The notes below the pieces were generated by a model. It saw only the letters and a program-made list of their open reading frames with translations. It was not told the origin of the DNA and did no database searches. Below, one piece after another: positions 25,165 to 28,426 of a stretch of DNA of 64,000 nucleotides. Where the stretch lies: positions 1-64,000 of the forward strand of contig CASFTV010000019.1 in the NCBI GenBank assembly GCA_949297765.1, given 5' to 3'. Positions within the stretch are counted from its first letter, which is position 1. Every line of letters starts with the position of its first letter. Source of the stretch: an uncultured bacterium. GTDB taxonomy: Bacteria; Verrucomicrobiota; Lentisphaeria; Victivallales; UBA1829. The translations under genes and the position numbers were made by a program.

Positions 25165-25407
25165 ATGCCGATCTTTGAATATGTCTGCAAACACTGCGGA
25201 AAAGAGTTTGAACAACTGGTGCCGTCCGCATCGGCAAAGCCCGCCTGCCCGGAGTGCGGGACGACAACGGAAATTGTCAAAAAGCTCTCCCGGTTTGCTC
25301 CGGCGGCAGGAGAGAGCGGAGAATGCCCGTCGCGGCCGTTCTGCCCCGCAGCGGGAAGCGGCGGATGCGGATGCGGACACGCAGGATGCGGACATCACCG
25401 GGGGTGA
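25165..25407 (+). CDS. FmdB-family zinc ribbon protein
   Basis: An 80-residue protein with the standard FmdB opening MPIFEYVCKHCGKEFE, two CxxC knuckles (CKHC and CPEC) and a family-type hydrophobic/charged stretch. The tail is Cys/Gly/His-rich (GGCGCGHAGCGHH), which may bind additional metal. FmdB proteins are small putative regulators with unclear function. GAGGAAAG precedes the start. The stop is one base from the rsmA ATG, so the pair is co-translated. Confidence 0.85.
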   Translation: MPIFEYVCKHCGKEFEQLVPSASAKPACPECGTTTEIVKKLSRFAPAAGESGECPSRPFCPAAGSGGCGCGHAGCGHHRG

Positions 25408-25408
25408 C

Positions 25409-26248
25409 ATGAAAAAAAGCGAACTGACCGCCCTGCTCTCGGCCATCGGCCTTGCCCCGAGCCGCAAACTCGGCCAGAATTTTCTGATCGACGACAATTT
25501 TCTCGACTGGCTCGTCCGGGAATCCGGAGCGGCGAAAGGAGAAACGATCGTGGAGGTTGGCCCCGGATTCGGCGCGCTGACCGGCAGGATGCTGGCGCTC
25601 GGAGCAAACGTGACGGCCATCGAATTTGATCACCGGATCTGCGAATGGCTCCGGTCCGTACTGGTCCCGAAAGGACTCCGTCTGGTGGAAGGCGACGCAT
25701 GCAAAATCAATTTTTCCACGCTGTTTCCGCCGGGGACACCGTTCCGGCTGATCTCAAATCTGCCGTATTCCGCTGGGACGGTTGTCGTGGCAAAGCTGCT
25801 CGATCAGGAAACGCCGCCGGAAGAGATGATCGTGATGCTCCAGAAAGAGGTCGCCATGCGTCTGGCGGCAGATGCCGGGGACGAGGAATACGGAGCGCTC
25901 TCCGTCCGGGCGAAAACGGTCTGTGAAGTTGAAATTCTCCGGATGGTCCCGCCCCAGCTGTTCCATCCGAAACCGGAGGTGGACTCCTGTGTTCTGCGGA
26001 TGAAACGGCGCGCGGATCTTCCCCCCGCCGAGTTCCGGACTCTGCTTTCCCAGGTGGTGCGTCTGGCCTTCTCTCAGCGGCGGAAAAAAATGATCAAACA
26101 GCTCGCCGCCGTTTTCGGACGCGAAACCGTAGAGGCGGCCTATCGGGAAATCGGACTTTCCGAAGACATCCGCGCGGAACGCGTCACCGCCGCCCAGTTC
26201 GGAGAGCTGACTCGATTTTTCCAAAATATAAAACATTCACCCCTATAA
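25409..26248 (+). CDS. rsmA: 16S rRNA (adenine1518/1519-N6)-dimethyltransferase
   Basis: A 279-residue KsgA/RsmA enzyme which dimethylates two adjacent adenines in the 3' hairpin of 16S rRNA using S-adenosylmethionine. Visible motifs: RKLGQNFLID, the SAM loop VEVGPGFGALT, the catalytic NLPYSAGT and FHPKPEVDS. Length is standard. The start at 25409 (MKKSEL) is set by the fmdB stop one base upstream, with GGGGGTG as ribosome site; the long frame from 25175 is the overlap with fmdB. Confidence 0.95.
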   Translation: MKKSELTALLSAIGLAPSRKLGQNFLIDDNFLDWLVRESGAAKGETIVEVGPGFGALTGRMLALGANVTAIEFDHRICEWLRSVLVPKGLRLVEGDACKINFSTLFPPGTPFRLISNLPYSAGTVVVAKLLDQETPPEEMIVMLQKEVAMRLAADAGDEEYGALSVRAKTVCEVEILRMVPPQLFHPKPEVDSCVLRMKRRADLPPAEFRTLLSQVVRLAFSQRRKKMIKQLAAVFGRETVEAAYREIGLSEDIRAERVTAAQFGELTRFFQNIKHSPL

Positions 26249-26267: not shown

Positions 26268-26295
26268 TTGAAAAACAGGTTTTTTGAGGTATATT
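26268..26295 (+). promoter_or_regulatory. Sigma70-type promoter of dehydratase-like gene
   Basis: TTGAAA at 26268-26273, a 16-base spacer and TATATT at 26290-26295, in the 87-base AT-rich gap after rsmA. Confidence 0.5.
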
Positions 26296-26335: not shown

Positions 26336-28426
26336 ATGACAAAGCAAAAACGTTATCTGGGAATCGACATTGGTTCCACCACATTTAAAGCCGTCATTCT
26401 GACGGAGGACGGGAAAGTCGAACATGTGACCTATCAGCGGACCAAACCGGTGGAATCCGGCCGCGTGACCTGCTCCAGCAAATGTTCGGAATGCGGACGC
26501 TGCAATCTCGGCGCGCTCAAAAAGACCGTTCTTTCCTTTCTCGCGGATGCGGGAATCCAGCCGGAAGACATCCGCTGCACGGTCGTGACGGGCAGTCAGA
26601 TCGTCGAAGGGATGAAGCGGTTCATCCATTATGATTTCCAGGTCAGCGAAGTCTCCGCGCATGTGGCGGGAGCACTGCACTACTATCCGCATGTCAAGGC
26701 GATCCTCGACGTCGGAGGACAGGACAGCAAGGCGATGATCTTCAACGAACGGATGGGAATGTGGACCTCCAAAATGAGCGGGATCTGCGCGGCGGGAACC
26801 GGAGCGTTTCTCGACAGCGTCGCACTCAAGCTCGGAGTCCCCGTCGAAGAGATGGCCGAGAAGGTCAACTACGACACCGATCTGGAATTCTCCTCGGTCT
26901 GCGCGGTTCTGAGCGCGACCTCGATCAACAAGTTCAAAAACCGCATGCCGCTCGGACAGGTCATCGGAGGCGCGTGCCGCGCTCAGGCGCGGACCATCAT
27001 CTCCGGCGTGGGACAGCTGCTGTTCAACTACAAAGGCGATATTGTCTTTCAGGGCGGAGTCGCCTCAAATCGCGCCGTCGCCTATTATCTGAAGGAGATC
27101 ACCGGCAACAACATCATCATTCCGGAATTTCATCAGGTGATGGGAGCGCTCGGAGCGGCCTGCATCGCACGGAAATACACCGAGCTGAAGGATTCGCTCA
27201 ACATGGAAAAGATCCAGTACGAACCGACGCCGATGCGTTCGGTGTCGATGCGGGCGAACAACACGCGCCGGGAATTCTTCTCCAAGACCAGAGGCGGCCC
27301 GATGGTGTGGCGGAATCTCTTTTTCCCGACCGAGCTGCTCAATGCGCTCGGAGTCAAGATGCTGACACTTGAGACCTACGCGGCGCTCTTCGCCCGCAAT
27401 TCCAAGCGGACAAAAAAAGCTCTGGACATCGCAGCCTACAAAGGATTCGCCGGAGAGACGTGTTCGTTCCTCCGCGTTCTGGAAGGGACCGATCTTCCGA
27501 AGCCGGCGTTCGGCGTTTCGACTTCGCAGCCGTGCCAGCAGGGGGAGCGGATCTTTCAGGATCTTGCGCGGCAGTACAATTTTTCCGACCGTTTCTATTC
27601 CCTCCATACGCCGATCAACGCGGAGGACCCCAATTCGGTCGATCAGATTGCGGAAGGACTGCAGGAAGCGGTCTTCCTGATGGAGAAGGCTCTGGACATG
27701 AAGCTGGATCCGGCGCGTCTGGCGGAAGCGTGCGAACTCTCCAACGAGGCCGCGGAATACTCCAAACGCTGCAATGAACTGCGCTGGACAAGTCCGCCGC
27801 TGATCCGGGGAACGGAAGGGGTGTACAGCGCCATTCTCTTCTCCCAGCTCTGGGGAAGGAAAGAACTGATCGACATCCAGAAGCAGTTTTACGAAGAACT
27901 CTGCCGGAAAAAGGAGTGGGCGGAAAAACGGTACAACATCGACGACACGCACCGTCTCCTGTGGCTGCATCTGCCCCCCTTCTACGACACAAAGATCCTT
28001 GATTACATCGAAACGACCTGCAATGCGCCGATTGTTTTCGAAGAGGTCAACTTTGTCGACTGGGAGATGCTGGATCCGTCCGATCCGTTCCGTTCCCTTG
28101 CGCGGAAACTTCTGACCGTGGGGTATCTGGATCCGAAACTGCGGGTGCACTACATTGTCCAGACGGCGAAAAAAGCGAAACTCAACGGCTGCATTCTCTA
28201 CAACCACGGATTCGGCCGCTGTTCGCTGTCGGACAGCTGTTTCGCCAAACATCTGCGCGAAGAACTCGACAAAGTGGGTCTTCCGCTCCTCACGCTCGAC
28301 GGCGACTGCATGGATCCGACCACCGACCCCTGCAGCACCCTGACTAAAATCTCTTCATTTGTGGAATCGCTGAACGCGAAAAAATACGGCAACATGTTCG
28401 GCAGAATCAAAGGAGTCCAATCATGA
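26336..28426 (+). CDS. Fused activase / 2-hydroxyacyl-CoA dehydratase-like (double-cubane type) protein
   Basis: A 696-residue fusion. Residues 1-285 are a BadF/HgdC-type ASKHA ATPase activator: IDIGSTTFKAVI, VVTGSQIVEG, DVGGQDSKAM, GICAAGTGAF with Cys151, SSVCAVLS with Cys189, and FQGGVASNRAV. The two Cys are the family's [4Fe-4S] ligands shared across the dimer. Residues 340-690 resemble the HgdB/BcrC-type D component or double-cubane cluster proteins (GETCSFLRVLEG, FGVSTSQPCQQGER, GCILYNHGFGRCSLSDS, LDGDCMDPTTDP). These enzymes use ATP to inject low-potential electrons. An extra Cys motif (C46, C50, C53, C56) in the activator is unusual. The stop overlaps the cupin start. The substrate is unknown. 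Confidence 0.83.
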   Translation: MTKQKRYLGIDIGSTTFKAVILTEDGKVEHVTYQRTKPVESGRVTCSSKCSECGRCNLGALKKTVLSFLADAGIQPEDIRCTVVTGSQIVEGMKRFIHYDFQVSEVSAHVAGALHYYPHVKAILDVGGQDSKAMIFNERMGMWTSKMSGICAAGTGAFLDSVALKLGVPVEEMAEKVNYDTDLEFSSVCAVLSATSINKFKNRMPLGQVIGGACRAQARTIISGVGQLLFNYKGDIVFQGGVASNRAVAYYLKEITGNNIIIPEFHQVMGALGAACIARKYTELKDSLNMEKIQYEPTPMRSVSMRANNTRREFFSKTRGGPMVWRNLFFPTELLNALGVKMLTLETYAALFARNSKRTKKALDIAAYKGFAGETCSFLRVLEGTDLPKPAFGVSTSQPCQQGERIFQDLARQYNFSDRFYSLHTPINAEDPNSVDQIAEGLQEAVFLMEKALDMKLDPARLAEACELSNEAAEYSKRCNELRWTSPPLIRGTEGVYSAILFSQLWGRKELIDIQKQFYEELCRKKEWAEKRYNIDDTHRLLWLHLPPFYDTKILDYIETTCNAPIVFEEVNFVDWEMLDPSDPFRSLARKLLTVGYLDPKLRVHYIVQTAKKAKLNGCILYNHGFGRCSLSDSCFAKHLREELDKVGLPLLTLDGDCMDPTTDPCSTLTKISSFVESLNAKKYGNMFGRIKGVQS

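Follow-up and report, generated by a model that had tools for sequence, protein, structure and literature searches.

ATP-driven radical enzymes reach potentials that are otherwise found only in nitrogenase-type chemistry, and they usually consist of several separate subunits. The 64,000-nt stretch of DNA from an uncultured member of the Victivallales that we analysed (the window) carries a gene in which an activator of this kind and a dehydratase-like D component appear on one chain, raising the question of what enzyme such a protein could be and whether it would need any partner. A first-pass annotation had suggested that it may be an ATP-driven reductase with an additional cysteine site and kinship to the double-cubane cluster proteins. 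As set out below, the fusion, the four-cysteine site and the ATP-driven reductase type stand, whereas the double-cubane kinship and the implied novelty of the fusion do not.

One chain carries an activase and a D-component-like part

The gene (positions 26336–28426, + strand) is an open reading frame with an ATG start and a TGA stop that encodes a 696-aa protein. Scanning this protein with Pfam matched two families and no other: BcrAD_BadFG (PF01869; 104.9 bits, cut-off 31.5) at residues 8–278 (26357–27169, +), an activase (ASKHA ATPase) part also recognized by its PDB relatives, and HGD-D (PF06050; 146.5 bits, cut-off 28.4) at residues 328–679 (27317–28372, +), a D-component-like part also recovered by fold search. 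With both domains above cut-off, the activator and the HgdB-like D component are indeed a single chain. None of the NCBIfam models reached its cut-off on the protein, the top scores being 120 bits for an activase domain model (cut-off 125.4) and 65.3 bits for the HadB model (cut-off 750). The AlphaFold2 model of the fusion had a pLDDT of 85 and a pTM of 0.86. A putative sigma-70-like promoter (TTGAAA-16-TATATT; 26268–26295, +), identified as a consensus match only, lies 40 bases 5′ of the start codon. Upstream of the fusion, at 25165–26248, the window has a gene for an FmdB-type zinc ribbon and then rsmA (rRNA adenine dimethylase), a pair that precedes the fusion in its near relatives L001, L002 and L004 as well.

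Structurally solved sequence relatives of the activase part are HadI, HgdC, MbdQ and the double-cubane cluster protein (DCCP) reductase DCCP-R, and the fold search returned MbdQ, HadI and HgdC with TM scores (by target) of 0.79–0.87. Its ATPase motifs are conserved relative to the solved activases. In activases, each monomer contributes two cysteines to the cluster, whose electron is passed on upon ATP hydrolysis (PMC11574389). In alignments to 1hux and 4eht, C151 and C189 of the fusion (26786–26902, +), which lie in CAAGTG and SSVC motifs, match the interface-cluster cysteines of HgdC and HadI and are invariant in 54 of 54 fusion sequences, making them putative ligands of an inter-subunit [4Fe-4S] cluster. 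A further cysteine of this part, C214 (26975–26977, +), is likewise invariant (54/54). Retention of all activase cluster ligands upholds the assignment to an ATP-driven reductase-type protein.

Joining an activase to a dehydratase is by itself already known from two precedents, contrary to the novelty that the first-pass annotation had implied. First, plasmid pAZKH of Azoarcus sp. KH32C encodes an activase–HGD-D fusion (WP_156822349.1, 685 aa) that shares domain order and length with ours; its D part, however, is of the DCCP-like kind, with 221.8 bits to NF040772, and the four-cysteine site is missing. Because trees place it elsewhere, this fusion arose independently. The pAZKH operon (L078:3006–7197) consists of a separate activase, the activase–DCCP-like fusion and a second HGD-D protein, with the fusion in between. 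Second, the ether-lipid enzyme PlsA unites domains for activation and for reduction/dehydration in a single polypeptide (PMC12838417), and the number of PF01869 domains in PlsA-like proteins can be one or two (PMC13274423).

The latter precedent also offers an identity for the fusion, namely a reduced form of PlsA (plasmalogen synthase) or Ger (glycerol ester reductase) that would convert lipid esters into vinyl or alkyl ethers. Although the single-chain arrangement of activation and reduction domains is shared with PlsA-type proteins (PMC12838417, PMC13274423), PlsA and Ger, which act on lipids, have two reduction domains and one or, often, two activation domains, whereas the fusion has one of each. 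Moreover, its activase part groups in the tree neither with the two-domain long-chain activases nor with the three-gene activases of the phylum, and we consider a PlsA- or Ger-type role highly improbable. The three-gene sets, seen in other phylum members (L058:963–4001 and similar loci among L053–L059), comprise two proteins with weak similarity to HGD-D and, behind them, an activase whose C-terminus is extended by CxxCxNxC...GGRCxKW; they resemble a split PlsA, with activation plus two reduction domains.

A conserved four-cysteine site in the activase part

The motif C46-x3-C50-x2-C53-x2-C56 (26471–26503, +) is an insertion in the ATPase fold, placed in the loop that leads from the third strand to the first helix. 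It is present as first described, and its four cysteines are invariant in 54 of 54 distinct fusion sequences from the Victivallales and their relatives, in nearly all of them in the form C-x-G-x-C-x-x-C-G-x-C-N-x-G. The claim of an extra site was therefore not refuted by examination of the orthologues, every one of which keeps the motif. By comparison, it occurs in 0 of 24 non-fused activases, three of the four PDB rows among them being too incomplete to span the motif, and composition shuffles of the protein produced it anywhere in the chain in 10 of 20,000 cases. Fusion orthologues of genus g4 (L047, L048, L049, L070 and L071) bear a variable insert of roughly 20 residues directly after the four-cysteine region, placed after about residue 74.

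The site is a candidate for an extra relay or ligand function. A different reading, in which the enzyme is otherwise the same, is that the four cysteines form a structural zinc knuckle or a redox-sensing thiol cluster: they fall within 11 residues together with glycines, in a loop that is partly below pLDDT 50 in the AlphaFold2 model; their spacing could also bind zinc; and the Pfam scan gave no iron–sulfur domain match at the motif. Against this, the host protein is of an iron–sulfur enzyme type in an apparent anaerobe, and the site is both strictly invariant and placed in the domain that receives electrons. We regard the zinc or thiol reading as possible but doubtful.

The D part keeps the HadB cysteine trio

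We aligned the D parts of 15 fusions with 22 non-fused HGD-D proteins of the phylum, two Azoarcus proteins and HadB. In the 24 sequences that are neither HadB nor query-type, six cysteine columns are each kept in 20–24 sequences, the pattern that a double cubane with its six cysteine ligands would lead one to expect (PMC11971306). The fusions retain three of these columns, C376 (27461–27463, +), C400 (27533–27535, +) and C629 (28220–28222, +), which align with the first, second and third cubane ligands of HadB, respectively, and thus correspond to the trio present in that protein. The remaining three double-cubane columns are occupied in the fusions by N327, a gap and a gap (15/15). Three cysteines (Cys95, Cys128 and Cys380) also ligate the catalytic cubane of BzdO (PMC11971306). 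In agreement with the cysteine pattern, HadB and BzdO were the closest folds to the D part (TM by target 0.76–0.83). The fusions are monophyletic in the trees of both halves (100/100 and 100/99), and in the D-part tree their clade (100/99) adjoins HadB (97/86), apart from the DCCP-like clade, on branches that the tree tool flags as long.

These data bear directly on the proposed kinship to double-cubane proteins, under which the gene would encode a DCCP fused to its reductase DCCP-R, with an [8Fe-9S] cluster that reduces small molecules. In favour of it, DCCP itself is homodimeric and has no second kind of subunit (PMC11971306), and the fusion gives a weak match to the double_cubane model NF040772 (38.8 bits) and a fold match to DCCP (6eno and 7yyl; TM by target 0.68–0.72). 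The single HGD-D gene of the window's genome is compatible with a homodimeric D-like protein. DCCP with DCCP-R further has in common with the fusion the lack of a second D-type subunit and ATP-driven electron transfer to a D-like protein, predicted in the case of the fusion. However, DCCP uses six cysteine ligands for its cluster, three of which are missing from every aligned fusion (15/15); the NF040772 score is far under the 350-bit cut-off; and the D part is nearest to HadB or BzdO by sequence, tree and fold, grouping with HadB rather than with the DCCP-like clade. On ligand columns, scores and tree we rejected the double-cubane identity, and we judge a DCCP-type function very unlikely.

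Among the 54 fusion sequences, the invariant D-part cysteines are C376, C400, C629, C658 and C666 only. The last two (GDC-x7-C; 28307–28333, +) are peculiar to the fusion clade, as no aligned relative, HadB included, has a cysteine at either position. They follow the strand that comes next after the C629 strand, and in the model the C629 loop and the C658/C666 loop both lie at the C-terminal ends of their strands (618–624 and 651–656). Because of this topology, C658 and C666 may lie near the predicted D-part cluster; like C46–C56, they are candidates for extra relay or ligand functions.

The fusion thus shares with HadB and HadI (3o3m and 4eht) both folds, the cysteine trio of the D cubane, the two activase cluster cysteines and the ATPase motifs. 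HadB and HadI are, in contrast, encoded by separate genes, their D component is heterodimeric and only about 20% identical to the D part of the fusion, and their activase is without the four-cysteine site. Class I benzoyl-CoA reductase (BzdO/MbdO with MbdQ/BzdQ; 8s02 and 9gai) likewise has both folds and a single three-cysteine catalytic [4Fe-4S] cluster, but it is built from four different subunits, including a second D subunit with a double cubane, and acts on aromatic CoA substrates; the fusion scored far below all cut-offs of the benzoyl-CoA reductase subunit models TIGR02259, TIGR02261, TIGR03191 and TIGR03192.

The fusion is widespread and usually the only D-type protein

Near-full-length versions, about 60–88% identical to the query, occur in 69 of 388 sampled genomes of the phylum, so the fusion is not an annotation artefact. 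In-frame stops in a few orthologues did not reflect selenocysteine; the match had simply extended over the natural stop codon. The genomes that carry the fusion belong to the class of the window's genome, except for those of a single family, f39, which is part of a different class; when that class was sampled more widely, 2 of 193 genomes had the fusion. In the D-part tree, sequences from f39 branch within or next to those of family f10, which belongs to the same class as the window's genome; this suggests horizontal transfer. The viral contigs that we searched contained no relative of the fusion, and the plasmid search returned distant relatives only.

Known 2-hydroxyacyl-CoA dehydratases (HADs) and benzoyl-CoA reductases (BCRs) have two different D-type subunits, and we know of no purely homodimeric enzyme of the HadB/BzdO type. 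In the window's genome (98.4% complete), by contrast, we found no second HGD-D gene and no further activase above cut-off, and the fusion is the sole HGD-D match in 64 of the 69 fusion genomes. It must therefore work without a second type of subunit, probably as a homodimer. A search with PF02515 found no class III CoA-transferase in the same genome. One acyl-CoA dehydrogenase N-domain match was obtained, along with three matches to the N-domain of pyruvate:ferredoxin oxidoreductase, from whose presence we expect reduced ferredoxin to be available.

These absences weigh on the most conventional alternative, a 2-hydroxyacyl-CoA dehydratase of amino-acid fermentation to which the activator has merely become fused. 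Such an enzyme would account for the HadB cubane trio in the D part and for HadB being the best of the NCBIfam D-component models (65.3 bits). That score, however, is far under the 750-bit equivalog cut-off; no fermentation genes lie alongside, the conserved neighbour being a cupin; and, in the absence of both a second D subunit and a class III CoA-transferase from the genome, classical 2-hydroxyacyl-CoA fermentation is an unlikely role for the fusion.

A cupin gene is the conserved neighbour

The start codon of a small cupin gene (116 aa, PF07883; 28423–28770, +) overlaps the stop codon of the fusion (ATGA). A cupin lies directly 3′ of the fusion in 33 genomes and is its only broadly conserved neighbour; other genes up- and downstream are varied housekeeping genes, with no catabolic operon among them. 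In one draft genome (G247; L015:1135–3582) the fusion and the cupin are in frame with no stop between them, giving an 830-codon open frame. A strict dependence of the fusion on the cupin was considered and rejected: cupin homologues occur in fusion-free genomes, and many genomes with the fusion carry theirs at an unlinked position; only the adjacency is conserved. The link between the two genes is thus real but not exclusive.

A proposed self-contained electron-transfer enzyme

The analysis shows the domains, the conservation of the named cysteines, the lack of partner subunits, the separate clade and the cupin linkage. We propose that the fusion is probably a self-contained ATP-driven low-potential electron-transfer enzyme, a reductase or a dehydratase, that forms its own subfamily of the BCR/HAD superfamily in Lentisphaeria. 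What is new is an activase–HadB/BzdO-type fusion that is free of partners and has an extra four-cysteine site and two extra D-part cysteines.

From these observations we infer cluster identities, a homodimer, an electron route and a chemistry, as follows. Two chains would pair through their activase parts and hold one [4Fe-4S] cluster between C151 and C189 of each. Ferredoxin would donate an electron, possibly via the C46–C56 site. ATP binding and hydrolysis would then swing the activase, delivering one very-low-potential electron to the D-part [4Fe-4S] cluster at C376, C400 and C629, whose open fourth iron site could support radical chemistry, either a ketyl-type elimination or a one-electron reduction. 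In such a homodimer one activase pair would face one D pair, the stoichiometry of known complexes, and, as most genomes have no second D component, identical subunits would have to cover both the catalytic and the electron-relay roles. A bolder version of this proposal, which we consider unlikely, is a one-gene ‘archerase’: a homodimer in which a ferredoxin-docking four-cysteine cluster, the ATP-driven activase and a catalytic cluster in a new five-cysteine environment (C376, C400, C629, C658 and C666) would together carry out a reduction that no member of the superfamily is known to perform.

An enzyme of this class encoded by one gene and independent of any further D subunit would offer a simple model for following the path of electrons, and its additional cysteines, which are strictly conserved, point to two places at which the relay may depart from that of characterized members. 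For the Victivallales and their relatives, the fusion is a widely retained enzyme.
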